Below the pieces are notes generated by a model. The model was not told the DNA's origin, did no database searches, and saw nothing but the letters and a program-made list of their open reading frames with translations. From Roseomonas gilardii (GTDB taxonomy: Bacteria; Pseudomonadota; Alphaproteobacteria; Acetobacterales; Acetobacteraceae): a stretch of 64,000 bases of DNA. Made by a program: the position numbers and the translations under genes. Where the stretch lies: the NCBI RefSeq assembly GCF_001941945.1, contig NZ_CP015583.1:361001-425000 (forward strand), written 5' to 3'. This document shows, in pieces, positions 43,955 through 63,634 of the stretch (position 1 is the stretch's first letter; the number at the start of each line of letters is the position of its first letter).

Positions 43955-44100
43955 AGACTGAATCGGTCCCGGCCAGGACCACCTGTCACCGCACGCGGCG
44001 AGCGTGGCGCCGCATGGAACACCCCTTCTCCTCCCATGGAGCCGTTCTCGCCACAACCCCGGACCTCCGCGCGTGGCAACGTGAGGTCACAGTGGGAGCG

Positions 44101-44227: not shown

Positions 44228-45913
44228 ATGGATGCCACGCCATCGGTTCTCGACCGGCAATGGTCCCTGGTCCAGCCCCTCCGCGCGGAAAGCGGCGAGG
44301 GTTTCCATGCGGCTCCGGGTGTGGTGCTGGACATCTCCCGCCTGCTCGCCCGCGGCCGCAAAGTCGCACCCTCCGGGATCGATCGGGTCGAACTCGCCTA
44401 TGCGCGCCGCTGGGCGGCCATGCCGGAGGACCGTTGCGTCTTCGTGGCTGGCGCCCTGTCCGGCGCCTGGTCCGTGCTGCCTCGCCGTGCGGTGGAGGAG
44501 CTGGTGGCGGCCCTCTCCATCTCCTGGTGCGGCACGCCCGCCGCTCCTCCGCCTCCCTGGTTCCCGCACGGTCCGTCCATGGCCGGAGGGGGGGCCGGAG
44601 GGGAGGGCTGGCAGGATCGCTGGGAAAGCCAGGACGAGATCCAGGCCGGGATGCAGCGGGAGGCGCAGCGGGACGCGGAACGGATCGCCACCCGCCTCCG
44701 CCTGCTCGCCGGCCTGGGCCTCGGCGCCGGGCAGCTCGCTCCCCGCCTCGGTCGCCTGGGCGCTCGCCGCGCCTTCCTGTTGGTCTCCCACCGGGCGCTG
44801 GAACGGCCCGGCCCGATCCAGGCGATGCGGGCCCGGGGCTGCGCCTTCGTGCCGCTGATCCATGACCTGATCCCCGCGACCCATCCGGAATATGCCCGTC
44901 CGGGACAGTCGGCGCGGCACCTGCGGCGGATCGACACCACCGCCCGCCTCGCCGATGGGGTGATCGTGAATTCCACCGACACCGCCGAGGTGCTGGCCCC
45001 CCATCTGCGCATCCGCCCGGTGCCCCCGCCGGTGATCGTGGCCCCCCTTGGCATCGAGACCACCGGCGTCGTGAGCGCCATGGGCCAGGGGGTCGTGACC
45101 CAAGACATCGTGACCCAGGGCGCCGTGACCCAGGGCGCCGTGATCCAGGGTGTCGGCGCGCGGTCCCTGCGGCACGCCGCCGCCACTGCCGAACGGCCTG
45201 GCGGACCGGCCCCCTATTTTGTCACCCTCGGCACCATCGAGCCTCGCAAGAACCACCTGCTGCTTCTGCATCTCTGGCGCGACTTCGTGCGCGCCGGCGC
45301 CGCCGGCCTTGGCGGCCCGGTGCCGCGCCTGCTGATCATCGGACGGCGTGGCTGGGAGAACGAGAACATCATCGACATCCTGGAGCGCAGCGCCGTCCTG
45401 CGCGGGACGGTCGAGGAACTCGGTCAGCTCTCCGACACCCGGATGGCCGCGCTGCTGAGCGGTGCCCGGGCGCTGCTCTTCCCCTCCTTCGTGGAGGGCT
45501 ACGGCCTGCCGCTGGCCGAGGCCCTGGCCCTCGGCGTGCCGGCGATCTGTTCCGACCTGCCCGCGCTGCGCGAGGTCGGAGGCCCGGTGCCGCATTATCT
45601 CGACCCGCTGGACGGCGCCGGCTGGCGCGCCGCGATCCTGGACTATGCCCGGCCCGGCAGTGCCGCCCGCGCCGCCCAGGCCACCCGGCTGCAGAACTGG
45701 CGGCCGCCGGGCTGGGACTCCCATTTCCGCCAGGTGGACGCCATGCTGGAGCATGTGACCCGTCCCCGGCCCGGCAGCGGGTCCGCCGCCTCGCCTCCTG
45801 CCACGGCCTTTCGCCGCTGGCCCGGCTGGCGCACCACCGCAACCCCGGAAATCTCTTCCGCATCCGGAAAAATTTCCTGGGTTCCCCTCGCAACCCACGG
45901 ATACGCAACGTAA
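44228..45913 (+). CDS. glycosyltransferase family 4 protein
   Basis: 561 aa GT-B glycosyltransferase, probably cytoplasmic, building part of the capsular polysaccharide. The N-domain shows 'VVLDISRLLARGRKVAPSGI' followed by 'DRVELAYARRW', and 'FVPLIHDLIPATHPEYARPG' near residue 218. The C-domain has 'YFVTLGTIEPRKNHLLLLHL' near 330, 'LLIIGRRGWENENIIDIL' near 365 and the donor-site E-x7-E block 'LFPSFVEGYGLPLAEALALG' near 420. A 15-bp tandem repeat encodes a (V-T-Q-G-A)-type linker at residues about 289-308. The last 40 residues look disordered. The PKS gene starts 10 bases downstream, so they are probably co-transcribed. Sugar specificity is unknown. Confidence 0.9.
   Translation: MDATPSVLDRQWSLVQPLRAESGEGFHAAPGVVLDISRLLARGRKVAPSGIDRVELAYARRWAAMPEDRCVFVAGALSGAWSVLPRRAVEELVAALSISWCGTPAAPPPPWFPHGPSMAGGGAGGEGWQDRWESQDEIQAGMQREAQRDAERIATRLRLLAGLGLGAGQLAPRLGRLGARRAFLLVSHRALERPGPIQAMRARGCAFVPLIHDLIPATHPEYARPGQSARHLRRIDTTARLADGVIVNSTDTAEVLAPHLRIRPVPPPVIVAPLGIETTGVVSAMGQGVVTQDIVTQGAVTQGAVIQGVGARSLRHAAATAERPGGPAPYFVTLGTIEPRKNHLLLLHLWRDFVRAGAAGLGGPVPRLLIIGRRGWENENIIDILERSAVLRGTVEELGQLSDTRMAALLSGARALLFPSFVEGYGLPLAEALALGVPAICSDLPALREVGGPVPHYLDPLDGAGWRAAILDYARPGSAARAAQATRLQNWRPPGWDSHFRQVDAMLEHVTRPRPGSGSAASPPATAFRRWPGWRTTATPEISSASGKISWVPLATHGYAT
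45092..45151 (+). repeat. 15-bp tandem repeat, four units, in frame inside the GT4 gene
   Basis: Four consecutive 15-base units related to GCCGTGACCCAGGGC, encoding VVTQD-IVTQG-AVTQG-AVIQG. Units 2 and 3 differ at two bases. It lies in the linker between the two Rossmann-like domains, where unit number changes would keep the frame. Confidence 0.8.
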
Positions 45914-45922: not shown

Positions 45923-48900
45923 ATGCCGGTGGCAAAAAACTCCCAAAAGAATCGTGTGAAAAATTCGCAACGGAAGGTTGTCCCGATCGCCATTGTCGGG
46001 GCGGCCTGTCGTTTCCCCGGGGCGCCGGACCTGGAATCCTTCTGGCGCCTGATGGCGGAAGGCCGCGACGCGGTCTCCACCCTGCCGGAGGACCGCTTCT
46101 CCCAGGCCCGGTTCCACCACCCCCGCAAGGGGGAGCCCGGCCGCGCCTATACCTTCGCCGCCGGGCATCTGGGCGACATCGCCGGCTTCGACGCCCGGGC
46201 CTTCGGCCTGTCCCCGCGCGAGGCCGCGGAGGCCGACCCGCAGCAACGCCTGCTGTTGGAGGTCGCGGCCGAGGCCATCGAGGATTCCGGCATGCCCGCC
46301 AGCAGCCTGGCCGGGCGGCCGGTCGGCGTCTGGATCGGCGGCTCCTCCACCGACTATGCCGAATTGCGGCTCTCCGACCCCTCGGGGGCGGACCGCTACT
46401 TCATGACCGGCAACACGCTGTCGATCCTGGCCAACCGGCTCACCAACGTCTTCGACCTGCGCGGCCCGGCCCAGACGGTGGACACGGCCTGCTCCTCCGC
46501 CCTGGTGGCCCTGCATCACGCGCTGCGCGCCCTGGCCCATGGCGATGCCGAGTTGGCGCTGGTGGGAGGCGTGCAACTGCTGCTCTCGCCCTATGCCTTC
46601 ATGGGCTTCTCCCGGGCCTCGATGCTCTCGCCCACCGGCAGGTGCCGCGCCTTCGACGCCACCGCCGACGGCTATGTCCGGGCCGAGGGCGCGGGCGTGG
46701 TGGTGCTGAAGCCGCTCGACCGCGCCCTGGCCGAGGGGGACCAGGTGCGCGCCGTGCTGCTCGCCTCCGGCGTCAACAGCGCCGGCCGTACCATTGGCCT
46801 GTCCCTCCCCAATGGCGAGGCCCAGGCCGCGCTGATGGCCCGCGTGATGCGCGAGGCCGAGGTGGAGCCGGAGCAGTTCGGCTATTTCGAGGCGCACGGC
46901 ACCGGCACCCAGGCGGGCGACCCGATCGAGACCTGGGCGATCGGCGAGGCCATCGCGAAGCGCCGCCGCGCGCCGTTGCCGGTGGGTTCGGTGAAGACCA
47001 ATATCGGCCATACCGAGCCCGCCTCCGGCATGGCCGGGCTGCTGAAGGCGATGCTGGTGCTGGAACGCCGCAGCATCCCGCCCAGCCTGCATTTCTCCAC
47101 CCCCAACCCGAACATCGCCTTCGACCGGCTGAACCTGCATGTGCCGGTGGCGGAGGAGCCGCTGCGCCTCGGTGGCCGCCCGGCCCGCCGGCGCGGGGAC
47201 CCGGCGCCGGTGGTGGGGGTGAACTCCTTCGGCTTCGGCGGCACCAATGCCTCGGTGATCCTGGCCGCCGCGCCGGTGACGGCCACGGAGGAGCCCGGCC
47301 CAGGAGAGGTTCCCGCGCCCGTCGCCGCCCCGCTGCCGCCCCTGCTGCTCTCCGCCCGCTCCCCCGCCGCGCTGCGCCTCCTGGCTGGGCGCTGGCAGGC
47401 GCGGCTGGCGGAAACGCCGGACGAGGACCTTCCCGCCCTGTTGCGGGGTGCCGCCCGGCACCGCGACCTGCAGCCACACCGCCTCGCCCTGCGCGGCCGC
47501 GGCGCCGCGGAACTCGCCGCCGCCCTGGCCGACTGGTCGGAGGGGCGCGACAGCCCCGCCACCACCGAGGGTCAGGCCCCCGCGGTGTCCGACCTCCCGG
47601 CGGGCGGCCTTGCCTTCGTCTTCTCCGGCAACGGCTCGCAGTTCCCCGGCATGGCGCGCGAAGCGCTGGCCGCCAGCCCCGCCCTGCGCGCCGGTCTGGA
47701 GGAGGCCGATGCCGCCCTGGCGCCGCTGCTTGGCTGGTCGCCCGCCGCCCGCCTCGCCGCCGGCGTCTCCGAGGCGGAGGTCGCCGGCACCGACATCGCC
47801 CAGCCGCTGCTCTTCGCCATCCAGGCCGCCCTGCTGCGCGCCCTGGCGGGGGAGGGGCTGCGCCCCGCTTTGGTCCTCGGCCATTCGGTCGGCGAGGCCG
47901 CCGCCGCGCTCGCCGCCGGCATCCTGGACATGGACCAGGCCGCGCGCCTCGTGGTGGCCCGTTCCGCCGCGCAGCACCGCACCCGTGGCCAGGGCCGCAT
48001 GGCCGCCCTGGCCCTGCCGCCCGAGGAGGCCGCGCCGCTGCTGGCGGAGGCCGGTCCGGGCCTGGAGATCGCCGCCCGCAACGCCCCCCGCGCCGTCACC
48101 GTGGCCGGTCCCGCCGGGGCGATCGCCCGCCTGGCCGAGCTGGCGAAGGCCCAGCGCGCGAACTGCGTGCCGCTCGACCTCGACTACGCCTTCCATTCCG
48201 CCGCCATGGAGCCGGTGCGGGAGGCCCTGCTTGGCGCCCTCGGCGCCATGGCGCCACGCCACGGCACCATCCCCTTCATCTCCACCGTCACCGGCGCTCC
48301 GCTGCCCGGCGAGGCGGCGGATGCGGAATACTGGTGGCGTAACCTGCGCGCCCCGGTGCGCTTCGCCGAAGCCACGGCGGCGGCGCTGGGGCAGGGGGCC
48401 CGGCTCTTCCTGGAGATCGGCCCCAACCCGGTCCTGCAATCCTATCTGCGCGAGGGCGCCCGCACCGCCGGCCTTTCCGCCGGGACGGTGTTCAGCCTGT
48501 CCCGCCGCGATCGCCCGGAGGCCTTTCCCGGCGGCGACCCCATCCCCGCCATCGCCGACCGCGCCACCACGCGCGGCGCCGACCCGCGTGGCGGCGCGCT
48601 CTTCCAAGGCCCGACCCGCCGCGACCTGCCCCTCACGCCCTTCGCGCGCGAACGCCACTGGCTGGCCATGACGGCGGAAAGCGAGCGCCTGCACGACGCG
48701 CCGCGCGACCACCGCCTGCTGGGGGAGCGCCGCGACCCGGAGCCACGGCTCTGGAGCCGCGAGCTCGACACGCTGCTGGAGCCCTGGCTGGCCGACCACC
48801 GCCTGGGCGGGGAGCCGGTGCTGCCGGCCGCCGCCATGCTGGAGATGGCTCTCGCCGCCGCCGCCCTGCGCTTCCCCGAGGCACCGGCGCTGGAGGTCGC

Positions 48901-51900
48901 GACCTTCCAGATCCTCCGCCCCCTGCCGCTCTCCGACAGCGAGGCCCGGCAGGTGCGCCTGCGCCTCGCCGATGACGGCATCGTCACCCTGGAAAGCCGT
49001 CTGCGCCTGGCCGAGGCCGCCTGGACGCTGCATGCCCGCGGCCGGCTGGGCGAGGCCGGGGAAGCCGCGCTGCCCGATGCCCCCGCCCTGGCCCTGGCCG
49101 CACCGGACGAGATGACGGGCGCGGAGATCACCGCGCTCGCTGCCCGCCTTGGCCTGGATTACGGCCCGGCCTTCCGTCCGGTCGCCGCCCTGGCCGCCGA
49201 GGATGGGCAAGCGGTGCTCCGTCTCGCGCTGCCCGAATCCGCCCCGCCGGACGAGGGCTTCCACCTTCACCCCGTCCGCCTCGACGGCGCGTTGCAGGGG
49301 CTGATCGGCCTGCTGGCGCCGCAGTTCCCGGTTCGCGCCGAGGCGCTGCCGGAGGGCGAGGCCCTTGTCCCCGTCCGCTTCGAGCGGCTGGTCTTCCGCC
49401 GTGGCGCCGCCCCGGCGGACAGCGCGGAGCTGCGCCTCGCCAGCCTGGGCGAGCGTTCCGCCGAGGCCACCCTCCTGCTGCGCGATGCCGCCGGTCAGGT
49501 GGTGGCCTTCGCCCAGGGCGTGACCCTGCAGCGCCTGCGCCTCGCGCGCGGCGAGGAAGCCCCGCTGCGCGCTTTCCGGCTGGAGGACGTGCCGGTCGCC
49601 GATCCCTCCCTGCCGGCCCCGGAACCCGCGCTGGCCGCCGCGCTGGCCGCCGCGATGCGGGCCGACGAGCGGCTGGACCTCAGCGAATCCGCCCTGCTGC
49701 TCGAAGGCTGGGCCGGCGCGCTGGCGCAGCGCGCGCTGTCCGCGCTGCCCGCGGCTCGCCCCCTCGCGCCTTCCGCGCCGGCCACCCCCCTGGCGAACGG
49801 GCTGTGGCAGGCCCTGGCGGAGGACGGGCTGGCCCACCATGACGGCACCGGCTGGCGCCTGCTGCCGCAGGAGGATCTGCCGGCGCCCGAGGAGATCTGG
49901 CAGTCCGTCCTGGCCGAGCAACCCTCGCTGGCGCATGACCTCGCCTGGCTCGCCCTGGCGGCGGAACACCTGCCCGGCAGCCTCGCCGGCCATGTCCCCA
50001 CTCTGCCGCTGGCCCCGCCCGACCTCGCCGGCGGCCAGGACCGGTTGGCCGAGGCCGCCGCCGCCGCTGCCGCCGCACTGGCCACCGCTTGGCCCGCCGA
50101 CCGGCCGTTGCGCGTGCTCGACCTCGGCGGCGCCGCGCTGACCCGCCACCTGCTCGCCGCCCTGGCCGAGACCGGCCGCGCCGTCACCCTGCTGGTGGCC
50201 GGCGAAGGGCGCCCGCTGCCGGAGGCGCGCGGCGGCGTGACGCCCGAGGCCCTGGCCTGGGACCCGCTCTCGGATCAGCCCGCCCCCGTGGCGGCGGATC
50301 TGGTGGCCGGCATCGGCGCCGCGCTGCGCGCACGCTGCGGCACCGGCCTCCTCGCCCGCCTCGCTCCCGCTTTGGCCGAGGGCGGCACCCTGCTGCTGGC
50401 CGAGCCGCTGCCCGGCCGCCTCTTCGACCTCGCTTTGGGGCAGGAGCCCGGCTGGTGGTCGGGCCGCCCGCTGCCGGATGCCACGGAATGGCGCGCCGCC
50501 CTGGCGCCGGAGGCCGGTTGGCAACACGCCCAGGCCGAGCCGCTGCGTGCCGCCCCCTGGCCCGCCCTGCTGCTGCTCGCCGCCCGCCCGGCCCCCTGTC
50601 CCTCCGTGGCGGGCGCCATGCCCGGCACCGCCCGCCCGCTGCTCCTGGCCGATGCCGGCGCCGCCGCGCTACGCGATGCCCTGGCCGGGGAATTCGCCGC
50701 CGCCTTGCCGGACGCGCTCCGCGACGGCGGGCGGCTGGAGGACGCCACCGCGCTGCCGGCCCGCGAACTGCGAGGGACCGAACTGCTGGTCCTGGCCGCG
50801 CCCGACGAAGCGGCCCTTCCTGCCACCCTGGCCTCCCTGGCCCGGCTGGCCGAGGCGGCCCAGGGCGCGGTTCGCCGCTTCACCCTGGTCATCGCGGGTG
50901 GCCCGGCCCATCCGGCCGCCGAGGCCCTGCGCGCCTTCGCCCGTGGTTTGGCCAACGAGATGCCGGACCTCGCCCCGCGCCGCATCCTGCTGGACACCGC
51001 CCTGGAACCGCGCGCGGCGGCGGCCCGCCTGCTGCCGGAGCTTCTCGCCCCGGCTGCGGAGCCCGAGCTGCTGATCGGGGCCGCCGCCCGCCGCGCCCCG
51101 CGCCTGCGCCCCGGTGCCGCCGATCCGCGTCCGCCCTGCGCGCCGGCTCGCCTCGCGGTGCGGCAGCCGGGGCAGCTCGGCACCCTGGCCTGGGAGGCGC
51201 TGCCGCCGGTCCAGCACCATATGCTCGGCCAAGGGCTCGCCCAGGGCGAGATCGCCGTGCGCGTCGAGGCCGCCGGTCTGAACTTCCGCGACCTGATGTG
51301 GGCCCAGGGCCTGCTGCCGGAGGAGACCCTGCGCGACGGCTTCGCCGGCCCCGGCCTCGGCATGGAATTCGCGGGCGTGGTCGAGGCCGTGGGCCCCGGC
51401 ACCGCGCTGCATCCCGGCGCCCGTGTCTTCGGCTTCGCGCCGCGCGCCCTCGCCTCCCATGCCGTGACCCGGGCCGAGGCCGTGGCACCGATGCCGGAGG
51501 GCATGGGTTTCGCCGCCGCCGCCACCGCCCCCGTGGCCTTCCTCACCGCCCTCTGGTCGCTGGAGGCCTGCGCCCGCCTCCAGCCCGGCGAGCGCGTCCT
51601 GGTCCATGGCGGCGCCGGGGCGGTCGGCCTCGCCGCGTTGCAGGTCGCCCGCGCCGCCGGGGCCGAGGTGGCGATGACCGCCGGCACCGAGGCCAAGCGC
51701 GCCTTCCTGCGCGCCGCCGGGGCCGATCTGGTGCTGGACAGCCGCGATGCCGGCTTCGCCGACCATCTCCGCCGCCACTGGCCGGATGGGGTGGACGTGG
51801 TGCTCAACAGCCTAGCGGGGGAGGCGATGGAGCGCTCCATCGCCCTGCTGCGCCCCTGGGGCCGCTTCGTGGAGCTGGGCAAGCGCGACTATGCCGAGGA

Positions 51901-53452
51901 CCGCCGCATCGCGCTGCGCCCCTTCCGCCGCAACATCAGCTATTTCGGCGTGGACGTGGACCAGCTCCCGGCCGCCCGCCCGGCCGAGGCCCAGCGGCTG
52001 ATCGAGAGCCTGCGCGACCGCCTTTCGCGCGGCGAGCTGCTGCCCCTGCCGCGCCTGACCCGCCGGGCGGAGGAGGTCGAGGACGCCTTCCGCCTGCTCC
52101 AGGCCAGCGCGCAGATCGGCAAGATCGTGATCCTGCCGCCGCGCCTCCAGGCGGCGGAGAAGCCGGACTGGACCCCGCCGGAGGGGATCGTCCTTGTCAC
52201 CGGCGGCACCGGCGGCTTCGGACTGGAATGCGCCAAGTGGCTCGCCGCCAGCGGTGCCGGGCGCCTCGCCCTGATCTCCCGGCGCGGCCCCGCCACGCCG
52301 GGCATCGAGGCCGCGCTGGTGGCATTGGGTGCCCTGGGCGCGCGGGCCTCGGCCCATGCCTGCGACGCCGCCGATCCCCAGGCCCTGGCCGCGTTGCTGG
52401 GCACGCTGCGGCGCGAGGGCCCCATCGCCGGCCTGGTCCATGCCGCCGCGGTCTTCGACGACGGCGCCCTGGCCTCGCTCGACGCGCCACGCTTCGCCGC
52501 CGTGCTGGCCCCCAAGCTGGGGGCGGCCCTGAATCTCGACCGGCTGACGCGGCGCGATCCGCTGGAGCTCTTCCTGCTCTTCTCCTCGGCCACCACGCCG
52601 CTCGGCAATCCGGGGCAGGGCAACTACGTCGCCGCCAATGCCGGGCTGGAGGCCCTGGCCCGCGCCCGCCGCGCCGCCGGGCGGCCTGCCCTGGCTGTCG
52701 GCTGGGGCCCCATCGCCGATGCCGGCATCCTGGCCCGCGAATCCGGCACCGCCGCCACCCTGGCCCGCCGTCTGGGCGTGGAGCCGATGGCGTCGCGGGA
52801 GGCGCTGGACAGCCTGCCGGCGCTGCTGTCCGGGGACCGGCCCGTGGTGCATCTCGCCCGGCTCGGCTGGCGACGCCTGGGCGCCGCCCTGCCGGTGCTG
52901 CGCGAACCCGCCTTCGCCCCGGTGCGCGAGGCCGGTGGGACGGGCGCCGAGGTCGGCGACATGCGCGCCCATCTCGCCGCCCTGCCGCCCGAGGAGGCCC
53001 GCGCCCTGCTGGTCCGCATCGGCGCCGAGGAACTCGGCCGCATCCTGCGCCTGCCGCCCGAATCCCTGGCCGCCGACACGCCTGTGGCGCGGCTGGGGCT
53101 GGACAGCCTGGGCGGGCTGGAATTGCGCGGCGCGCTGGAGCAACGCCTGGGCCTGTCCGTCCCCCTGGCCAGCGTGACCGACGACCTGACCCTCGGCTCC
53201 CTCGCCGCCCGCGTGGTCGATGGCCTGCGCGGCGGCGGCGAGGAGGCCCAAGTCGCCATGCTGCTGGAGCATTTCGAGCCTTCGCGCCCTCCGGAGGGGA
53301 TGGGCGGCGAGGCCGCGCCGGCGCCGGCATCCCGCGATGACGTCCACCGCGGCCCTCTTCCCGCCGCTTCCCGGCACGATTCCTCTGGCGGCCCGCATCC
53401 CGGCGCCTCCGGCGGCCAGCCCCTGACCACCGAGGGAGAGACCGCCCGATGA
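45923..53452 (+). CDS. iterative type I polyketide/fatty-acid megasynthase (RkpA-like)
   Basis: 2509 aa. Domains in order: KS about 20-450 (Cys190 in 'DTACSSA', His325 in 'EAHGTGT', His363 in 'NIGHTEP'); AT 565-870 (Ser655 in 'GHSVG', 'YAFHS' near 755); DH 925-1205 (His959 in HxxxGxxxxP, Asp1121 in 'VRLDGALQG'); a methyltransferase-like domain 1290-1560 with a decayed SAM motif ('VLDLGGAALTRHL'); a pseudo-KR about 1565-1735; ER 1745-2070 ('LVHGGAGAVGLAALQVA'); KR 2088-2320 ('VTGGTGGFGL', Tyr2235); ACP 2350-2435 (Ser2395 in 'GLDSLG'). This is the layout of animal FAS and highly reducing PKS. There is no thioesterase, and the next gene, an alpha-oxoamine synthase overlapping by 4 bases, is the likely release enzyme. 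The first 20 residues are Lys/Asn-rich and low in GC. By analogy with rhizobial RkpA it should make a saturated acyl chain for a capsule lipid. Confidence 0.93.
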   Translation: MPVAKNSQKNRVKNSQRKVVPIAIVGAACRFPGAPDLESFWRLMAEGRDAVSTLPEDRFSQARFHHPRKGEPGRAYTFAAGHLGDIAGFDARAFGLSPREAAEADPQQRLLLEVAAEAIEDSGMPASSLAGRPVGVWIGGSSTDYAELRLSDPSGADRYFMTGNTLSILANRLTNVFDLRGPAQTVDTACSSALVALHHALRALAHGDAELALVGGVQLLLSPYAFMGFSRASMLSPTGRCRAFDATADGYVRAEGAGVVVLKPLDRALAEGDQVRAVLLASGVNSAGRTIGLSLPNGEAQAALMARVMREAEVEPEQFGYFEAHGTGTQAGDPIETWAIGEAIAKRRRAPLPVGSVKTNIGHTEPASGMAGLLKAMLVLERRSIPPSLHFSTPNPNIAFDRLNLHVPVAEEPLRLGGRPARRRGDPAPVVGVNSFGFGGTNASVILAAAPVTATEEPGPGEVPAPVAAPLPPLLLSARSPAALRLLAGRWQARLAETPDEDLPALLRGAARHRDLQPHRLALRGRGAAELAAALADWSEGRDSPATTEGQAPAVSDLPAGGLAFVFSGNGSQFPGMAREALAASPALRAGLEEADAALAPLLGWSPAARLAAGVSEAEVAGTDIAQPLLFAIQAALLRALAGEGLRPALVLGHSVGEAAAALAAGILDMDQAARLVVARSAAQHRTRGQGRMAALALPPEEAAPLLAEAGPGLEIAARNAPRAVTVAGPAGAIARLAELAKAQRANCVPLDLDYAFHSAAMEPVREALLGALGAMAPRHGTIPFISTVTGAPLPGEAADAEYWWRNLRAPVRFAEATAAALGQGARLFLEIGPNPVLQSYLREGARTAGLSAGTVFSLSRRDRPEAFPGGDPIPAIADRATTRGADPRGGALFQGPTRRDLPLTPFARERHWLAMTAESERLHDAPRDHRLLGERRDPEPRLWSRELDTLLEPWLADHRLGGEPVLPAAAMLEMALAAAALRFPEAPALEVATFQILRPLPLSDSEARQVRLRLADDGIVTLESRLRLAEAAWTLHARGRLGEAGEAALPDAPALALAAPDEMTGAEITALAARLGLDYGPAFRPVAALAAEDGQAVLRLALPESAPPDEGFHLHPVRLDGALQGLIGLLAPQFPVRAEALPEGEALVPVRFERLVFRRGAAPADSAELRLASLGERSAEATLLLRDAAGQVVAFAQGVTLQRLRLARGEEAPLRAFRLEDVPVADPSLPAPEPALAAALAAAMRADERLDLSESALLLEGWAGALAQRALSALPAARPLAPSAPATPLANGLWQALAEDGLAHHDGTGWRLLPQEDLPAPEEIWQSVLAEQPSLAHDLAWLALAAEHLPGSLAGHVPTLPLAPPDLAGGQDRLAEAAAAAAAALATAWPADRPLRVLDLGGAALTRHLLAALAETGRAVTLLVAGEGRPLPEARGGVTPEALAWDPLSDQPAPVAADLVAGIGAALRARCGTGLLARLAPALAEGGTLLLAEPLPGRLFDLALGQEPGWWSGRPLPDATEWRAALAPEAGWQHAQAEPLRAAPWPALLLLAARPAPCPSVAGAMPGTARPLLLADAGAAALRDALAGEFAAALPDALRDGGRLEDATALPARELRGTELLVLAAPDEAALPATLASLARLAEAAQGAVRRFTLVIAGGPAHPAAEALRAFARGLANEMPDLAPRRILLDTALEPRAAAARLLPELLAPAAEPELLIGAAARRAPRLRPGAADPRPPCAPARLAVRQPGQLGTLAWEALPPVQHHMLGQGLAQGEIAVRVEAAGLNFRDLMWAQGLLPEETLRDGFAGPGLGMEFAGVVEAVGPGTALHPGARVFGFAPRALASHAVTRAEAVAPMPEGMGFAAAATAPVAFLTALWSLEACARLQPGERVLVHGGAGAVGLAALQVARAAGAEVAMTAGTEAKRAFLRAAGADLVLDSRDAGFADHLRRHWPDGVDVVLNSLAGEAMERSIALLRPWGRFVELGKRDYAEDRRIALRPFRRNISYFGVDVDQLPAARPAEAQRLIESLRDRLSRGELLPLPRLTRRAEEVEDAFRLLQASAQIGKIVILPPRLQAAEKPDWTPPEGIVLVTGGTGGFGLECAKWLAASGAGRLALISRRGPATPGIEAALVALGALGARASAHACDAADPQALAALLGTLRREGPIAGLVHAAAVFDDGALASLDAPRFAAVLAPKLGAALNLDRLTRRDPLELFLLFSSATTPLGNPGQGNYVAANAGLEALARARRAAGRPALAVGWGPIADAGILARESGTAATLARRLGVEPMASREALDSLPALLSGDRPVVHLARLGWRRLGAALPVLREPAFAPVREAGGTGAEVGDMRAHLAALPPEEARALLVRIGAEELGRILRLPPESLAADTPVARLGLDSLGGLELRGALEQRLGLSVPLASVTDDLTLGSLAARVVDGLRGGGEEAQVAMLLEHFEPSRPPEGMGGEAAPAPASRDDVHRGPLPAASRHDSSGGPHPGASGGQPLTTEGETAR

Positions 53453-54831
53453 CCCAGTCCTTCGGCCTCACCACCACCGCCCGCCTGGCGCTGCTGCAGC
53501 GCCTGGCCAAGCGGCGCGCGCACCAGGACGAGGCGCGTGCCGGACAGGGACATAACGGGGGAGGCCATGCGGAGGGCCACGGGGCGGGGCGGGAGGGCCG
53601 GGGCCACGGCACCCGCAGCCGCTTCGCCGACCTGCCCGGCATGCGCGACTTCGCGCTGATGCAGACGGCGGTGGAGGCGCTCTCGCTGGAAAGCCCCTTC
53701 TTCCGCCCCCATGCCGGCGTCGCCGGGGCGCGGACCACCATCGGCAACAGCCGCTACCTCAACTTCTCCTCCTACAACTACCTCGGCCTGAACGGCGATC
53801 CGCGCGTCACCGGCGCGGCCAAGGCGGCGATCGACCGCTATGGCGTCTCGCCCTCCGCCTCCCGCCTCGTTTCCGGCGAGCGCCCGGTCCATGCCGAGCT
53901 CGAATCCCTGCTGGCGGAGAACTATGGTGCCGAGGCAGCGCTCTGCATGGTCTCCGGCCATGCCACCAACGTCACCGTCATCGGCCACCTGATGGGCGCA
54001 CGCGACGTCATCGTCCACGACGCCGCCATCCACAATTCCTGCACCGAGGGCGCCCGCCTTTCCGGCGCCCGCCGCATCCCCTTCGCCCACAACGACTGGC
54101 GCGCCGCTGAACGCGCGCTGGAGGGCGCCCGCCGCGCCGCAGGCCGAGCCCTGCTGGTGATCGAAGGGCACTATTCCATGGATGGCGATGTCCCCGACCT
54201 CGCCCGCTTCGTGGAGATCGCCCGCCGCCACGACGCCTGGCTGATGGTGGACGAGGCCCATTCCCTGGGCGTGCTCGGCCCCACCGGCCGCGGCATCTTC
54301 GAGGCCCAGGGCGTCGATCCCGCCGGCGTCGATATCTGGATGGGTACGCTCAGCAAGACCCTGTCCGGCTGCGGCGGCTTCATCGCGGCGCAGCGCGACC
54401 TGATCGAATGGCTGCGCCACACCGCGCCGGGCTTCGTCTATTCCGTCGGCCTGCCGCCCAACCTCGCCGCCGCCGCCAGCGAGTCCCTGCGCATCATGCG
54501 GGCCGAGCCCTGGCGCGTGGAGAAGCTCCAGCACAACGCACGCCACTTCCGCGACCGCGCGCGTGCCATGGGCTTCGACACCGGCTCCTCCGAGGGCCAT
54601 GCCATCGTGCCCGTCATCACCGGCTCCTCGGTGAAGGCCGCGCGCCTGTCCGTCGCGATGTTCGAGCGCGGCGTGAACGTGCAGCCCATCGTCTTTCCCG
54701 CCGTGCCGGAACAGTCCGCCCGCCTGCGCTTCTTCCTCTGCGCCGAGCATGAGACGGCGGATCTGGACCGCGCGCTGGAGGCGCTGGCCGATGCCATGGC
54801 CAGCCTCTCGCCGCTGGAGGTTCCAGGCTGA
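53449..54831 (+). CDS. alpha-oxoamine synthase (AONS/SPT-like, RkpG-like) PLP enzyme
   Basis: 460 aa fold-type I PLP enzyme. It would condense an acyl thioester, here probably PKS-ACP-bound, with an amino acid and lose CO2, giving a 2-amino-3-ketone. Conserved points are 'YLNFSSYNYLGLNGDPRVT' near residue 105, 'GVSPSASRLVSGERPVHAEL' near 135 and 'SGHATNVTVIGHLMG' near 170. 'MVDEAHSLGVLGPTGRG' near 267 includes Asp268 and His271, and the Schiff-base Lys303 is in 'GTLSKTLSGCGGF'. About 55 extra N-terminal residues are His/Gly-rich. The ATG overlaps the PKS stop (ATGA), so translation is coupled. Which amino acid is used (Ser, Ala or Gly) cannot be read from sequence. Confidence 0.92.
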   Translation: MTQSFGLTTTARLALLQRLAKRRAHQDEARAGQGHNGGGHAEGHGAGREGRGHGTRSRFADLPGMRDFALMQTAVEALSLESPFFRPHAGVAGARTTIGNSRYLNFSSYNYLGLNGDPRVTGAAKAAIDRYGVSPSASRLVSGERPVHAELESLLAENYGAEAALCMVSGHATNVTVIGHLMGARDVIVHDAAIHNSCTEGARLSGARRIPFAHNDWRAAERALEGARRAAGRALLVIEGHYSMDGDVPDLARFVEIARRHDAWLMVDEAHSLGVLGPTGRGIFEAQGVDPAGVDIWMGTLSKTLSGCGGFIAAQRDLIEWLRHTAPGFVYSVGLPPNLAAAASESLRIMRAEPWRVEKLQHNARHFRDRARAMGFDTGSSEGHAIVPVITGSSVKAARLSVAMFERGVNVQPIVFPAVPEQSARLRFFLCAEHETADLDRALEALADAMASLSPLEVPG

Positions 54832-54860
54832 CCACGCTCGCCACATCGCCGGCCGGGACG

Positions 54861-56042
54861 ATGGCCGCGCCCGCCATGGCGCGGGCATCGGCCCCGCTCC
54901 GCATCGTCGGGATCGCCTCGGCGCCGGAAGCGGCCACCTGGCTCGACCTGCCCGCGCGCCTGGGCGGGGAGGCGGCGGGCTGGAGCGTGCCCCTGCTCTT
55001 CGAGAGCCGCCGCGTCTTCGATCCCGGCTTCAACACTGCCCTGGGCGAATGGCGCATCGCCCGCTTCCTGGCCCTGCGCGGCGCGGAACCGGTGGGCCGC
55101 ATCTGCGCCGCCCTGCCACGCGACGGCTCCACCGGCGGCATCGGCCATTTCGGCTTCCTGGCCTGCGAGGAGGACCACGCCATCCTGCGTGCCCTGCTCG
55201 GCGCCGCCGCCGCGCAGCTCGCCGCCTGGGGCGCCACGGCCCTGCGCGGTCCCTTCTCCTTCTCGGTGAACCACGAGATCGGCCTGCGCGTCGAAGGTGG
55301 CGAGGCGCCGATGCTGCGCATGCCCCGCAACCCCGCCTGGCTGCCGCCCCTGCTGGAAGAGGCCGGCGCCCCGCTCGGCCTGCAGCGGGAGAAGGACGTG
55401 CTCGCCTGCACGCTGGACGTCGCCGCCGAGACCCACCGCGCCCGCTTCGCTTCCCTCCAGGCCCTCTGGCCGGGACGCGACCGCCTCTGCATCCGCCCGC
55501 ACGACCCCTGGCGGCTGGGCGAGGAGGTCGGGCTGATCCGCGCGCTCTACAACGATGCCTGGGCGGAGAACTGGGCCGCCCAGCCGGTCACCGAGGCCGA
55601 GGCGGACACGATGCGCCGCCTCCTGCGCCCGCTGCTCGCCTCCGGCCGCGTGTTCTTCGCCGAATGGGAAGGGGAGCCGATCGGCCTCTGCGCCGTGGTG
55701 CCGAACCTGGAGGAAGTCTCCCACCGGCTCGGTGGCCGCCTCTGGCCCACCGGCTGGCTCGGCATGGCCGGCGCGCTCGCCGGCCGCACCACCTCCGCCC
55801 GCATCCCCCTGCTCGGCATCCGCCGCGCTTTCCGCCGCAGCCAGGTTTCGCGCATGGCCGTCGGCGCTCTGCTGTCCGAGGCCATCGCCCTGGCGGAGCG
55901 CCGTGGCTGGCATCGCCTTGAGACCTCCTGGGTGCTGGAGGACAACGCCCCGATGCTGGCCGCGATGACACGGCTGCGCGCGCCCGTGACCGGGCGCTGG
56001 CGTGTCTGGCGCGCCCCGCTGGAGGCAGTCCCTCCCGCATGA
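54861..56042 (+). CDS. GNAT-like acyltransferase, candidate N-acyltransferase of the aminoketone lipid
   Basis: 393 aa, probably two GNAT-type halves. The first half has 'WSVPLLFESRRVFDPGFNTA' followed by 'GEWRIARFLALRGAEPVGRI' near residue 65, then 'IGHFGFLACEEDHAILRALL' and 'ALRGPFSFSVNHEIGLRVEG'. This series of blocks is seen in large GNAT-like proteins that occur in lipid gene clusters. The second half has 'GRVFFAEWEGEPIGLCAVVP' and 'SRMAVGALLSEAIALAERRG'. Bacterial ceramide synthase is also a GNAT-related protein, so N-acylation of the oxoamine synthase product is a reasonable inference, not shown. It starts 29 bases after the synthase and overlaps kpsS by 4 bases. Confidence 0.75.
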   Translation: MAAPAMARASAPLRIVGIASAPEAATWLDLPARLGGEAAGWSVPLLFESRRVFDPGFNTALGEWRIARFLALRGAEPVGRICAALPRDGSTGGIGHFGFLACEEDHAILRALLGAAAAQLAAWGATALRGPFSFSVNHEIGLRVEGGEAPMLRMPRNPAWLPPLLEEAGAPLGLQREKDVLACTLDVAAETHRARFASLQALWPGRDRLCIRPHDPWRLGEEVGLIRALYNDAWAENWAAQPVTEAEADTMRRLLRPLLASGRVFFAEWEGEPIGLCAVVPNLEEVSHRLGGRLWPTGWLGMAGALAGRTTSARIPLLGIRRAFRRSQVSRMAVGALLSEAIALAERRGWHRLETSWVLEDNAPMLAAMTRLRAPVTGRWRVWRAPLEAVPPA

Positions 56043-57421
56043 ACGCCATCGCCACCGCGCGCGCCGGCACCCCGCCGCCCGGGCACAAGTCCTTCCTGTT
56101 CCTGCAGGGGCCGATCAGCCCCTTCTTCCGCATGGTCGGCGCGGAGCTGCGCGCCCTCGGCCATGACGTGCTGCGCGTGAACCTCAATGCGGGCGACTGG
56201 CTGATCTGGCACGGCCCCGACGCCGTGAACTACCGCGGCCGACCTGGTGACTGGCCCGCCTGGTTCGAGGCGCTCTGCGAGGAGCGGCAGGCCACCGACC
56301 TTGTGCTGCTCGGCGAGCAGCGCCCCCAGCACAAGGCCGCCATCGCCATCGCCCGCCGCCGTGGCATGCGCGTCGTGGCCACGGATTTCGGCTATATCCG
56401 CCCCGACTGGATCGTCCTGGAACGCGACGGCATGAATGCCGAGAGCCGTTTCCCGCGCGATCCGGAAACCATCGTCGAGATGGGCCGCAACCTGCCGCCG
56501 CCCGACCTCGTCGTGCATCACCGCGACAGCTTTCCGCGCCAGGCCGCCTGGGACATCGCCTATCACCTCACGGCGATGCTGCGCTGGCCCTTTCCGCACC
56601 ACCGCAGCCACCAGCTCTATCATCCCATCCCGGTCTATGCGGGCACGCTGCTGCGTCTGCTGACCCGCCGCCACGACAACCGCCGCGCCGACGCCATCGT
56701 GCGCGCGTTGCAGGGCCAGGGCCCGCTCTTCCTCTTCGCCATGCAGATGGAGACGGACTTCTCCCTGCGGGCCTATTCCCACTATCCCGACCTCGACACG
56801 GCGATGGAGGAGGTGATGGAATCCTTCGCTCGCCATGCACCTGTCGAGGCGAAGCTGCTGGTCAAGGTCCATCCGCTCGATCCCGGCATCAAGCGCTGGA
56901 AGCGCCGTGTCCGCCGCATTGCCGGCCGCCATGGCGTCGGCGACCGCGTACATTACCTGGGCGGCGGCAATCTCGGCCATATCACCGAGAGCGTGCAGGG
57001 CGTCATCACCGTCAACAGCACCGTCGGCCTGCGCGCGCTGATCGACAACCTGCCCACCCACGCGCTGGGACAGGCGATCTACAAGATCCCCGGTCTCACC
57101 CATGCCGGGCCGCTCGACGCCTTCTGGCGCGACCCGCCCCGCCCCGACATGGCGCTGCGAGAGGGCTTCCTGCGCGGCATCGCCCACTGCCTGCATATCC
57201 GCGGCGTCTACTATGCTAAGGAAGGTCTGGACGTCGCCGTGCGGCAGGCCACCCACCGCCTGCACCACGGGCTGCTGAATGCCCCCGTGCTGGACTTCAC
57301 CGCCGCCTTGCCCCTGCCGTCCCTGGCCGCGCAAGCGCCCCCCATCGGCGGCGCCACCAACCCGATCCTCTCTCCGGCGCCCTGCCCGGCGGAGCCGTCG
57401 GTGCCGGTTTCCGCGGCCTGA
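56039..57421 (+). CDS. kpsS: capsule polysaccharide biosynthesis/export protein KpsS
   Basis: 460 aa. KpsS is a beta-Kdo transferase that starts the poly-Kdo linker on the lipid acceptor of group 2 capsules. The N-domain has 'FLFLQGPISPFFRMVGAELR' near residue 20 and 'HDVLRVNLNAGDW'. 'VVATDFGYIRPDWIVLERDG' near 120 (F-G-Y-x-R-P-D) and 'LFLFAMQMETDFSLRAYSHY' near 230 follow. Then come 'KLLVKVHPLDPGIKRWKRRV' (K-x-H-P nucleotide-sugar motif) and 'GVITVNSTVGLRALIDNLPT'. All are standard for KpsS. Residues after about 415 look like a disordered tail. It is the last gene of the PKS operon; its overlap with the acyltransferase gene ties lipid synthesis to capsule initiation. Confidence 0.93.
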   Translation: MNAIATARAGTPPPGHKSFLFLQGPISPFFRMVGAELRALGHDVLRVNLNAGDWLIWHGPDAVNYRGRPGDWPAWFEALCEERQATDLVLLGEQRPQHKAAIAIARRRGMRVVATDFGYIRPDWIVLERDGMNAESRFPRDPETIVEMGRNLPPPDLVVHHRDSFPRQAAWDIAYHLTAMLRWPFPHHRSHQLYHPIPVYAGTLLRLLTRRHDNRRADAIVRALQGQGPLFLFAMQMETDFSLRAYSHYPDLDTAMEEVMESFARHAPVEAKLLVKVHPLDPGIKRWKRRVRRIAGRHGVGDRVHYLGGGNLGHITESVQGVITVNSTVGLRALIDNLPTHALGQAIYKIPGLTHAGPLDAFWRDPPRPDMALREGFLRGIAHCLHIRGVYYAKEGLDVAVRQATHRLHHGLLNAPVLDFTAALPLPSLAAQAPPIGGATNPILSPAPCPAEPSVPVSAA

Positions 57422-57743
57422 CGTCCTGCCCGGGGAGCCTGCCCCAGCGGCAACGGGTTTCTCCGGGAACAGCGACAAGGCGTCCTGCCCGGACAGGTCA
57501 AGAAGCCACTGCCGGCAAGGGGATGACGCGCATCTGCCCGATCCGGAGGATGGCATCGGTGTATCCGACCTGTCGGCAGCGCCGCCAGTAATCCCAACGG
57601 ACCGTCTTGGTGTCTGATGAATCGGGACGTCTCAAATATACATCGTCCAAAATAAAAATCAGCCCGAATACCTCAAAAGGATCGAATTTGCGGGAATGGG
57701 CAAAGAATTTGTGCTAAGAGGATGGCCGGACGAGGAGCAGCAC
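57422..57743 (+). promoter_or_regulatory. intergenic leader with AT-rich promoter pocket
   Basis: 322 bases between kpsS and the transglutaminase-like gene. The first 200 are GC-rich without a recognised feature. 57625-57720 is strongly AT-rich (runs such as AAAATAAAAATC) and is likely the promoter of the downstream gene. No gene is supported in this stretch. Confidence 0.45.
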
Positions 57744-58574
57744 GTGCATATCCAGGTCGGCTACGAGATTACCTATGAACTGCCGCAGCCCACTCCCATG
57801 GTTCTGATGCTGAACATCCATCCGGATCGCGCCGGGGATATTCTGGTTCCTGAAGCGCTGCGTTGTGATCCTCCTGTCCCTGTCGCTCCGTACAGGGATG
57901 GGTTCGGCAATCTCGGTTCCCGCCTGACCGCACCGGCGGGACGCTTCGTCCTCTCGAACAAGGCGCTGGTCCAGGACACGGGACTGCCCGACATCCTGGT
58001 GCCGGACGCGGCGGAACACGGTGTGGCCGATCTGCCGGATGAGGCGATAGGCTTCCTGCTGGGAAGCCGGTACTGCGAGGTGGATCTGCTGGCGGCGACC
58101 GCCTGGCGGCTGTTCGGGGATGTTCCGCCGGGCTGGGCGCGCGTGCAGGCGATCTGTGACTTCGTCCATCGGCACATCGCCTTCGACTACCAGGCGGCGC
58201 GTTCCACCAGGACGGCGTCGGAAGCCTATGACGAGGGCCGTGGCGTCTGCCGTGACTACGCACATCTCGCGATCGCCTTCTGTCGCGGCCTGAACATCCC
58301 GGCGCGCTACTGCACGGGCTATCTCGGAGACATGGGGACGCCGCAGCCATGGGGCGTTCCCGATTTCGCGGCCTGGTTCGAGGTCTATCTGGGCGGTGGC
58401 TGGCACACCTTCGACGCGCGCAACAACACGCCCCGTATCGGGCGCATCCTGTTGGCGAGAGGCCGGGACGCCACGGATGTCGCGATCACAACGACATTCG
58501 GCTCCCATTACCTCGCCGGCTTCAAGGTCCAGACCGACGAAGTGCCGGATGCGGAAGTGGCCAGGGTCGGTTAG
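57744..58574 (+). CDS. transglutaminase-like cysteine protease-fold protein
   Basis: 276 aa. The start is GTG 57744, because GAGGAG lies 6 bases upstream and the family begins with 'HIQVGYEITYELPQPTPM'. An earlier ATG (57696) would add an unrelated 16 residues. The N-terminal beta domain includes 'MLNIHPDRAGDIL' and 'YRDGFGNLGSRLTAPAG'. The transglutaminase core carries the catalytic Cys in 'GRGVCRDYAHLAIAFCRGLN', with His and Asp in 'GWHTFDARNN'. Bacterial relatives are usually cytoplasmic and probably act as peptidases or amide-modifying enzymes. Sitting in a capsule locus between kpsS and kpsC, with its own AT-rich promoter, its role is unclear. Confidence 0.9.
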   Translation: MHIQVGYEITYELPQPTPMVLMLNIHPDRAGDILVPEALRCDPPVPVAPYRDGFGNLGSRLTAPAGRFVLSNKALVQDTGLPDILVPDAAEHGVADLPDEAIGFLLGSRYCEVDLLAATAWRLFGDVPPGWARVQAICDFVHRHIAFDYQAARSTRTASEAYDEGRGVCRDYAHLAIAFCRGLNIPARYCTGYLGDMGTPQPWGVPDFAAWFEVYLGGGWHTFDARNNTPRIGRILLARGRDATDVAITTTFGSHYLAGFKVQTDEVPDAEVARVG

Positions 58575-58672: not shown

Positions 58673-60484
58673 CTAGCGCCGCCCCGACAGCCGCGCGATC
58701 CACCGCCGGACCCGCCCTTCCAGCCCGCGATGCAGGGTCAGCGGCGAGAGCTTCCAGGCCCTGGGGTCTTCCATCCGCTCCAGGATCAGCTCCACCGGGC
58801 AGGGCAGCAGCGTCACCGGGTCGATGTAGCGCGGGTAGAGGATCAGCACCGCCGCCACCAGCTCCTCCAGCGAGCGCGCCACGCCGCGCCGCCCGGCGGG
58901 AAAGCCCTCCGGCGCCCGGTCCTCGGTCAGCCCCCAGCCGGCATAGAAGGGCCGCCCATAGGTCACCACCGGCACGTCGCGCAGCAGCGCCTCGAAGCCC
59001 GAGAGCGAGGTCAGCGTGTGCACCTCGTCCACCAGCGGGAACAGGCCGGAGAGCGGCGCCCCCAGCACCACCTGGTCCGCCACCGCCGCCAGCTCCGCCG
59101 CCGCGATCCGCCCCTTGCGGAACCCGGCCTCCAGGTCCGGATGCGGCTTGTACAGGATGAACCCCTCCGGCCGCGCTGCCCGCACTGCCCGCAGCAGCGC
59201 GAGGTTGGACTGGATCGCCCCGCCGCCGCAGCGCACCGAGGCGTCGTCCTGCACCTGCCCGGGCACCAGCAGCACGCGCCGCCCCGCCGGCGCCGTGATG
59301 GGCGGGACCTCCCCGCCCAGGTGGTACTTGCCGATGCCACGCGCCACGATCGCCGCGCGCAGGGTCTTCGCCCGCGCCAGCAGCCGCCGGTCCGTCACGC
59401 CCCGCTGCAGGATCAGCTCCAGATCCGAGGGTTGCGCCGGGTCGTAATAGGCGCCCCGCCCGTCGAGGCAGTAGGAGGCCCCCGGCAGGAACCGCGCGCC
59501 CAGCCCGCGCGAGCGCAGGAAGCCGTCCTCCAGCGCCAGCACCGGTATGCCTCCCGCGCGCAGCCCAGGCTTCTCGCGCGAGGCCCAGACGGCGATCCCG
59601 TCGGCCCCGCCCTGCTTTCGCGCCGCCCGCGCCACCCGCAACGCGCCCTCCGCGCTTTCCGCGAAGCGCGGGGCCGAGCCGTCGTCGCGTCCCAGCAGCG
59701 CCCCGACCTGCGCCCGCTTCCAGCGCGCGATGCCCAGGCAGACCGAGACGCGGCGGTTCTCCCGCTCCCGCTCCCGCCAGAAGCGCAGCAGCTCCATCGC
59801 CTCGGGCAAGGGCAGGGGACGGTGCCGGAACGGGTCCGCCGCCCGCGCCTCCGCCAAGTCACCCGTCATGTCAGCGGGGGGCGCGTCGGGACAGGGGAGG
59901 CCCGCGATCCGCGCCAGCACCGCCATGGCCCGCCCGGCGCCCCGCATCTCCGTGGCGATGTCGATCAGGCTCCAGGGCGAGACGCGCGGCTCCAGCCGTG
60001 GCACGCCCGGCACGGCCCCGGGCAGGAACCCCGTCCAGGGATCGCGCGCCAGCGCCGCCCGGCCCCCTTCCGCCAGGACCTGCCGCGCCGCCGCCTCCGT
60101 GAAGCAGAGCGCATGTCCCCGCGCAGCCTCGTCCAGCGCCTTTCCGCCCGGATCGGGCAGGCCGGGCGGCCCGCCCAGCCGGTGGCGCCGCGCCAGCGCC
60201 GCCGCCTCGTCCCGCTCATCCCGTCCGGCGGTCCCCGCCAGGCCGGGCGCGAAGAGAACCACTGGCGCCCGGTGCCCGGCGAAGCCCGGCGGATCGAAGG
60301 GGGAGGGGGAGACGCGCTGCACCAGCCCCGCCCAGCCCCGCGGCACCGGATCACCCTCCCGCAGCAGCAACGGCCCCACCCCGTCCCGTTCCGGGACAAG
60401 CACGGTATCGGGCCAGAAGCCGGACAGGTGTGGCCAGGAAGCCAGCATCGCGTCCGTAACCGTGAGGGGAGTGGCCAATTTCAT
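58673..60484 (-). CDS. kpsC: capsule polysaccharide biosynthesis protein KpsC, with a single recognisable Kdo-transferase half
   Basis: 603 aa. The C-terminal half (about 245-570) is a full KpsC-type beta-Kdo transferase domain: 'CLGIARWKRAQVGALLG', 'IPVLALEDGFLRSRGLGARF' near 313, 'LLVPGQVQDDASVRCGGG' near 405, 'ILYKPHPDLEAGFRKG' near 443 and 'VVTYGRPFYAGWGLTEDRAP' near 506. Classic KpsC (about 675 aa) has two such domains and repeats these motifs. Here the first 240 residues lack the KPHP and GRPFYAGWGLT motifs, so the N-terminal transferase is missing or decayed. It is divergent from the lipoprotein-kpsMTED genes, with a 52-base shared promoter gap that is AT-rich. ATG 60484 is the only good start. 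Confidence 0.9.
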   Translation of the reverse strand: MKLATPLTVTDAMLASWPHLSGFWPDTVLVPERDGVGPLLLREGDPVPRGWAGLVQRVSPSPFDPPGFAGHRAPVVLFAPGLAGTAGRDERDEAAALARRHRLGGPPGLPDPGGKALDEAARGHALCFTEAAARQVLAEGGRAALARDPWTGFLPGAVPGVPRLEPRVSPWSLIDIATEMRGAGRAMAVLARIAGLPCPDAPPADMTGDLAEARAADPFRHRPLPLPEAMELLRFWRERERENRRVSVCLGIARWKRAQVGALLGRDDGSAPRFAESAEGALRVARAARKQGGADGIAVWASREKPGLRAGGIPVLALEDGFLRSRGLGARFLPGASYCLDGRGAYYDPAQPSDLELILQRGVTDRRLLARAKTLRAAIVARGIGKYHLGGEVPPITAPAGRRVLLVPGQVQDDASVRCGGGAIQSNLALLRAVRAARPEGFILYKPHPDLEAGFRKGRIAAAELAAVADQVVLGAPLSGLFPLVDEVHTLTSLSGFEALLRDVPVVTYGRPFYAGWGLTEDRAPEGFPAGRRGVARSLEELVAAVLILYPRYIDPVTLLPCPVELILERMEDPRAWKLSPLTLHRGLEGRVRRWIARLSGRR

Positions 60485-63568: not shown

Positions 63569-63634
63569 TCCCCGGGGAGGGGGCTCAGGGGGAGAGAACG
63601 GGATGGCGTCACTGTTGTTTGGGGGATGCATGAG

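Follow-up and report, generated by a model that had tools for sequence, protein, structure and literature searches.

Does a capsule operon that carries a polyketide synthase (PKS) make the lipid on which its own polysaccharide is started? The question is raised by a 64,000-nucleotide stretch of Roseomonas gilardii (GCF_001941945.1, contig NZ_CP015583.1, positions 361,001–425,000; hereafter the window), in which a reducing PKS, an alpha-oxoamine synthase (AOS), a GNAT-type N-acyltransferase and a KpsS-family beta-Kdo transferase are encoded in a row. The initial annotation had proposed that these genes supply a ceramide-like lipid to the capsule in place of a phospholipid. From the comparison of related loci we consider it probable that the operon makes and uses a private capsule lipid, an N-capped sphingoid-like aminoketone that would replace (lyso-)phosphatidylglycerol as the acceptor.

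Structure of the operon and its synthases

The four genes lie in the order given by the initial annotation, with ATGA overlaps of 4 bases at the PKS/AOS and GNAT/KpsS junctions and a gap of 29 bases between AOS and GNAT. The operon extends further than was stated there: a GT4 glycosyltransferase gene, which is found upstream of the PKS in relatives too, ends 9 bases upstream of the PKS, and the remainder of a capsule locus follows (Table 1). For comparison, 150 genomes of the Acetobacteraceae (hereafter the family) were searched with the GNAT, the AOS, PF05159 and a formyltransferase, and the gene layouts of the loci were drawn from tblastn matches. AOS and GNAT are adjacent in 11 family genomes from 8 genera (that of the window among them), which argues that the operon is not a chance arrangement. 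A GNAT of the window's type is carried by 12 family genomes, 9 of which have AOS, GNAT and KpsS in line.

The Pfam domains of the PKS are KS, AT, DH, ER, KR and a single PP-binding domain, with no thioesterase detected by Pfam, as expected of the complete reducing type I synthase that had been predicted. Active-site motifs of KS, AT, ER, KR and the acyl carrier protein (ACP) domain are present, as judged by the usual sequence patterns. The DH pattern matched a spurious place only, and the DH call rests on two Pfam domains.

The nearest Protein Data Bank (PDB) neighbours of the AOS are SPT and KBL (SPT 3a2b, E 1.8e-65). It falls below the cut-off of every listed NCBIfam equivalog, BioF, KBL, SPT and ALAS included, and scores 298.7 bits against the best SPT model (cut-off 640), so that it is not assigned as an SPT equivalog. 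Residues H195, D268, H271 and K303, which we take to be catalytic, are invariant among 22 aligned sequences. The genome encodes three further AOS homologues; one of these lies on a different contig, scores as a curated SPT (629.5 bits, cut-off 500) and is directly preceded by an 83-residue ACP, and the capsule AOS is therefore not the ordinary SPT of the genome. On plasmid p3 of Planktothrix agardhii, a natural KS-AT-DH-ER-KR-ACP-AOS fusion (locus L279:2536–10134) has an AOS part 49% identical to the window AOS. This fusion would fit an AOS that releases the chain from the PKS ACP, and lends support to the release step that had been assigned to the pyridoxal phosphate (PLP) enzyme. Apparent PKS-AOS fusions inside the family (very long AOS frames in L115, L116, L117 and L138) were rejected, as the PKS and AOS matches lie in different frames.

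The GNAT belongs to the CerS/YghO family

The GNAT is 35% identical to the other CerS homologue of the genome and about 28% identical to E. coli YghO over 95% of the query. E. coli yghO is neighboured by genes for an SPT-like enzyme, an ACP, an epimerase/dehydratase, a fatty acyl-AMP ligase and LptFG. A tree was built from 63 distinct proteins (90 loci with usable frames before de-duplication; frames outside 330–460 residues or incomplete were excluded). The 17 proteins of the type found in the slot between AOS and KpsS form one clade (support 100/99), against 46 others that include YghO, and conservation reaches 90% or more in both groups at 32 alignment positions. By homology and shared conserved residues the window GNAT is thus a member of the CerS/YghO family, and by its place in the separate slot-type clade it lies outside the ceramide-locus clade and is not a CerS orthologue. 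The slot-type clade includes one protein from another family (genome G306, beside a PKS and an AOS) and a relocated copy in genome G011. GNAT relatives were found in 41 of 289 genomes sampled from the class; apart from the window's own copy, none exceeds 38% identity.

CC_1154 and yghO are named together as the N-acyltransferase needed for dihydroceramide synthesis (PMC9386255), and CC_1154 is described as CerS (PMC11324152). Family membership thus supports the N-acyltransferase role predicted for the GNAT. PDB matches of the GNAT to ATM1 exporters (E 7e-5) were set aside as composition matches, the aligned part being the ABC ATPase region.

Elsewhere in the same genome (locus L038, C2:147000–166999), genes for an ACP (4492–4743) and an SPT (4746–5966) are followed 10 kb on by the other CerS homologue (15597–16754), which has an LptG-like gene and a fatty acid hydroxylase for neighbours. 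This genome keeps its ordinary ceramide synthesis separate from the capsule operon.

The GNAT is exchanged for a formyltransferase

In many relatives the slot between AOS and KpsS holds a formyltransferase (PF00551, counted at E 1e-30 or better); locus L170 of Pararoseomonas indoligenes is an example of the formyltransferase version. Slot-type GNATs, which are 49–100% identical to the window GNAT (the next best match being 38%), occur in 12 family genomes, all 12 of which carry the AOS. The slot formyltransferase occurs in 25, and 24 of these carry the AOS; the remaining genome (G012) is 86% complete and has its match at a contig end. A close AOS (57% identity or more with that of the window) is present in 38 family genomes; 12 of them have the GNAT alone, 24 the formyltransferase alone and none has both. 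The chance of zero overlap is 3e-8 if the genomes are taken as independent, which they are not. A better measure is the AOS tree (50 rows, 17 with GNAT and 29 with formyltransferase), which gives 8 changes among the GNAT and formyltransferase rows; when each cap group is set against all other rows, 9 or 10 changes are obtained, at least 3 of which are forced by the starred branches. The exchange reaches into the window's own genus, a member of which (G003, locus L115) has the formyltransferase.

The cap gene adjoins the AOS in 11 of the 12 genomes with the GNAT and in 20 of the 24 with the formyltransferase. Four genomes with an empty slot (G011, G089, G111 and G031) carry it at another site, and in G076 it is found upstream of the PKS matches. 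The catalytic Asn, His and Asp of the formyltransferase conform to a strict pattern in 28 of 35 loci (duplicates included); by visual inspection the remaining seven deviate from it solely in the Ser or Pro adjacent to the His, and one of these (L149) is truncated ahead of the Asp.

Two unrelated enzymes that acylate amines, each tied to an amine-making AOS and each excluding the other, point to an N-capped lipid, which is the strongest pointer of this analysis. The genomics supports the N-cap well as a predicted feature of the lipid; the mutual exclusion is observed directly, and the capping reaction itself is inferred. The ceramide-like product of the initial annotation becomes one option among others, because exchange with a formyltransferase suggests a cap that may be small.

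In locus L131 (1360–2349) a 2OG-Fe(II) oxygenase is encoded between the formyltransferase and KpsS, and gaps of similar size are seen in L122 and L134. The lipid may be hydroxylated in some lineages.

A KpsS clade linked to the AOS

The KpsS protein of the window scores 189.1 bits against the NCBIfam equivalog NF050054 (cut-off 600) and is not assigned to it. PF05159 was found in 38 of the 45 family genomes with an AOS versus 20 of the 105 others (Fisher 3.8e-14; the match counted for G076 is weak and partial). Within the family, PF05159 and the AOS go together without being strictly linked.

The KpsS tree holds 93 sequences, spans below 280 residues and duplicates having been excluded: 44 rows come from AOS operons, 21 lie near an AOS and 28 are from short AOS-free stretches (20 from genomes lacking it, 8 from genomes that have it elsewhere). 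The clade of the window's KpsS takes in 41 of the operonic rows and 9 of those near an AOS but none of the 28 AOS-free ones; three operonic rows fall in the other clade. In the family survey the window's clade occurs in 25 genomes, in every one of them in the AOS operon, and the other clade in 32. The initial annotation had held that independent distribution of kpsS and the PKS genes would speak against its proposal. For PF05159 as a whole, the partial separability from the AOS does so; for the window's own clade, the linkage across 25 genomes favours the proposal.

The two clades also differ in their company. An LtaS-like gene, present in 64 family genomes (e.g. G028:C3:119495–120751), accompanies the other KpsS clade in 30 of 32 genomes and the AOS-linked clade in 1 of 25 (G107). 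We considered whether the LtaS-like protein makes a lyso-phosphatidylglycerol-like acceptor; LtaS-like domains are expected to face the periplasm and KpsS the cytoplasmic side, and the correlation is kept as an unexplained one.

Gene content of the window

The capsule genes are listed in Table 1. With a mono-modular reducing PKS followed by an AOS, and with a KpsS-type gene and capsule ABC export genes nearby, the locus is of the rkp-1/wcb type. Genes for acceptor, linker and export are all there, and the stretch read holds one GT4 glycosyltransferase besides KpsC and KpsS. The transglutaminase-like protein has no match in the 17 loci compared and is left outside the proposed pathway. The OPX gene is followed by genes for a DUF2491 protein and an M20 peptidase, with an unassigned frame between them. 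Genes for a histidine kinase and a FIST-domain sensor (41226–42683 and 42680–44056, both on the minus strand) lie immediately upstream of the operon, diverge from it and are possible regulators. A minus-strand frame at 60519–61760 was rejected as a gene, being most likely antisense to the ABC permease.

Table 1. Genes of the capsule locus, in window coordinates.
Feature	Position	Strand	Evidence
GT4 glycosyltransferase	44228..45913	+	PF00534, 57 bits; first operon gene
Reducing type I PKS, KS-AT-DH-ER-KR-ACP, 2509 aa	45923..53452	+	Pfam domains and motifs
Alpha-oxoamine synthase (AOS), PLP, AONS/SPT superfamily	53449..54831	+	PF00155, 174 bits
GNAT-type N-acyltransferase, CerS/YghO family, capsule-slot clade	54861..56042	+	PF00583, 23.6 bits (cut-off 20.7); tree
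KpsS-family beta-Kdo transferase, AOS-linked clade	56039..57421	+	PF05159, 242 bits (cut-off 20); tree
Transglutaminase-like protein	57696..58574	+	PF01841
KpsC-like beta-Kdo transferase	58673..60484	-	PF05159, 120.6 bits
Capsule ABC transporter permease (KpsM-like)	60954..61754	+	PF01061
Capsule ABC transporter ATPase (KpsT-like)	61759..62406	+	PF00005
Wzz/KpsE-like polysaccharide co-polymerase	62369..63568	+	PF02706, 26.8 bits (cut-off 25.5)
OPX/Poly_export outer-membrane protein (KpsD/Wza-like), start only; runs beyond the window	63626..64000	+	PF02563; L042:13627–15414

Comparison with known systems

On pSymB of Sinorhizobium meliloti (CP090106.1, locus L278) PKS and AOS are followed by an SDR, a 512-residue frame with PF00884 (89 bits) and a KpsS-type protein; we take the five to be rkpA, G, H, I and J, names that are absent from the record itself. 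As in the window, PKS and AOS overlap by 4 bases and the KpsS-type gene comes later, and the two AOS proteins are 50% identical. The difference lies between AOS and KpsS, where rkp-1 has the SDR and the LtaS-like (PF00884) protein and the window has the CerS-family GNAT; in this respect the GNAT does go beyond the rkp comparison, as had been claimed. The SDR and LtaS-like pair is absent from the window's slot; three SDR queries found nothing in the window, and the LtaS-like query found nothing in its genome at E 1e-15, the genome's three PF00884 genes giving no match. The S. meliloti frame with the sulfatase/LtaS domain (L278:13265–14803), presumably RkpI by its position, does not appear in the PLSDB gene table, which is described as incomplete. 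A review credits the rkp-1 products with the synthesis and modification of a specific lipid carrier used in capsule secretion (PMC4881576).

Capsule loci with a PKS have been described as rkp and wcb (PMC3908369, PMC4245539), and the wcbR-type PKS of Burkholderia capsule loci is mono-modular and reducing, like that of the window (same sources). The Burkholderia and Paraburkholderia loci resemble the window in having PKS and AOS in the same locus, with export genes in view in L212 and L233, and differ in an LpxC paralogue between the two (L230:8907–9821, NF009666, 519 bits, cut-off 423; L282:7887–8801, annotated so; seven more similar by eye). An LpxC-type deacetylase beside an amino-lipid pathway deserves a look.

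SgaAB of Pseudomonas fluorescens MYb115 likewise pairs an iterative PKS with an AOS and yields C24–C28 sphinganines; with acyl-CoA surrogates as substrates, its AOS favours L-serine above alanine and glycine (PMC12134224). It differs from the window in that an SDR is proposed as the next step, and the main text of that paper makes no mention of a capsule, a GNAT or a polysaccharide (PMC12134224). On the Pseudomonas plasmid pL21564-1 (L281) an SDR is the fifth gene after the AOS, among capsule genes and an LtaS-like gene, and the distance between the AOS and SDR there equals that between sgaB and sgaC as read from their locus tags (RS19800, RS19775). Judged by this spacing, sga could belong to a capsule locus.

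Rhodobacterial ceramide synthesis (aasR, acpR, spt, cerR, cerS) shares with the window an SPT-type step and a CerS-family N-acyltransferase; its acyl donor is a stand-alone AcpR charged by AasR (PMC9386255), whereas in the window the donor would be the megasynthase ACP. The E. coli group 2 capsule has KpsS, KpsC and ABC export in common with the window and differs in that Kdo is added by KpsS to (lyso-)phosphatidylglycerol (PMC7694667).

More widely, 583 AOS relatives were found in a scan of named genomes, and the best 80 come, with few exceptions, from alpha-, beta- and gammaproteobacteria. Within 10 kb of the AOS, a gene labelled as KpsC, KpsS or of capsule ABC/KpsE type is seen in 50 of these 80 loci and in none of the remaining 30, some of which are on short contigs. 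Other arrangements of the slot include an SDR (L141–L143 in the family, L154–L156 in the class) and an AOS directly followed by KpsS (L150 and L152, class). An SDR stands beside KpsC in 7 of 10 family-type loci with KpsC in view (two on the same contig), not in the window. The family loci L147 and L280 (Acidisoma) hold a GNAT, an SDR and an AOS next to KpsC/KpsS but no PKS, and so combine a ceramide-like gene set with capsule genes.

Proposed pathway and alternatives

In the pathway that we favour, the iterative PKS would build a saturated acyl chain on its own ACP, as suggested by the complete set of reducing domains and the absence of a thioesterase. The AOS would release the chain in a decarboxylative condensation, for which serine is the most likely amino acid, to a sphingoid-like 2-amino-3-ketone, a step inferred from its family, its coupling to the PKS, the natural fusion and the SgaAB precedent. 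The GNAT would then N-acylate the amine, the formyltransferase doing the equivalent job in related genera, after which the AOS-linked KpsS would start the beta-Kdo linker on the lipid, KpsC would extend it and the ABC exporter would move the glycolipid out. The attachment to the capsule, the amino acid and the chain lengths are predicted parts of this scheme.

Several observations weigh against this pathway. The proposed link between lipid and polymer is one of guilt by association. PF05159 is found without the AOS in 20 of 58 family genomes, and the AOS without a PF05159 match in 7 of 45. Two genomes with a close AOS (G042 and G123) have neither cap enzyme, and in G072 (L127/L176) AOS, formyltransferase and KpsS are in line with no PKS match within the surrounding 20 kb. 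Seven genomes (G011, G047, G127, G059, G104, G028 and G115) combine an AOS and a cap gene with a KpsS of the other clade; the special clade therefore goes with the operon but is not strictly required. The AOS and KpsS trees are quick ones with SH-aLRT support only. Most KpsS rows on the AOS side were fetched via the AOS, so that the family survey is the fair test of the clade; outside the family, KpsS was seen solely in loci chosen by their AOS, and the exclusiveness of the clade holds for the family alone. A 3-keto reductase was not found in the window with the three SDR queries.

The same genes could make a free membrane or secreted aminolipid, with KpsS co-located as an envelope gene and the capsule carried on ordinary phosphatidylglycerol. 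SgaAB does make free sphinganines and most likely phosphoglycerol sphingolipids too (PMC12134224), PF05159 and the AOS are partly separable, and KpsS lies away from the AOS in some genomes. We nevertheless regard this as unlikely, given the capsule genes labelled near 50 of the best 80 AOS loci, the confinement of the operonic KpsS clade to the AOS operon in 25 of 25 family genomes and the reported involvement of rkp-1 in capsule export (PMC4881576). It is still harder to believe that the substrate of the GNAT and the formyltransferase is a capsular amino sugar rather than a lipid, an explanation that we consider very unlikely. Sugar N-acyl- and N-formyltransferases do vary between surface polysaccharides, Formyl_trans_N covers sugar N-formyltransferases too, and four slot formyltransferases fall below every NCBIfam cut-off, scoring best against PRK06988, ArnA and Fmt models. 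Yet the GNAT belongs to the CerS family, the cap gene sits between AOS and KpsS and is tied to the AOS across genomes (GNAT 12/12, formyltransferase 24/25), and a single GT4 besides KpsC/KpsS is present in the stretch read. The nearest match to PF01041, a sugar aminotransferase family, is more than 200 kb away, which is not decisive, as GlcNAc-type sugars need none.

A third alternative concerns the size of the cap. The GNAT could add a long acyl chain to give a true two-chain ceramide anchor, the formyltransferase lineages making a different single-chain lipid. CerS (CC_1154) is needed for dihydroceramide in Caulobacter (PMC11324152), the 32 conserved positions are common to both GNAT clades, and a separate CerS homologue is kept in the genome. 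This version is doubtful, in that the repeated exchange with the formyltransferase (8 changes) suggests a cap whose size is small or of little matter, and the canonical acceptors include the single-chain lyso-phosphatidylglycerol (PMC7694667).

Beyond the private lipid as such, we tentatively suggest a distinct class of anchor: a PKS-derived N-acyl or N-formyl sphingoid aminoketone that would be the direct acceptor of a KpsS clade switched away from phosphatidylglycerol. A free 2-amino-3-ketone is reactive, and the cap would be needed for that reason; other lineages would reduce the ketone instead (SDR, S. meliloti). If this is true, published PKS sphingolipids such as those of sgaAB would be capsule-anchor intermediates.

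Implications for capsule lipids in the Acetobacteraceae

The private capsule lipid is a sound extension of rkp-1 and not a new kind of system: a lipid carrier for rkp-1 (PMC4881576) and sphinganine synthesis by a PKS and an AOS (PMC12134224) were already on record. We found no description of a CerS-family GNAT in a capsule operon, of its exchange with a formyltransferase or of an AOS-linked KpsS clade, in a search confined largely to freely accessible papers, which is weak evidence of absence. In the text available to us, the review of rkp-1 speaks only of 'a specific lipid carrier' (PMC4881576). The exchange of GNAT and formyltransferase points to one group, the amine made by the AOS, and turns the question into one for mass spectrometry with a definite expectation; the apparent either-or capping by two unrelated enzymes is thereby a hint at what the lipid must look like. 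The results suggest a second sphingolipid-like route in these bacteria, for the capsule rather than the membrane, and the KpsS family may hold a subgroup with another acceptor.

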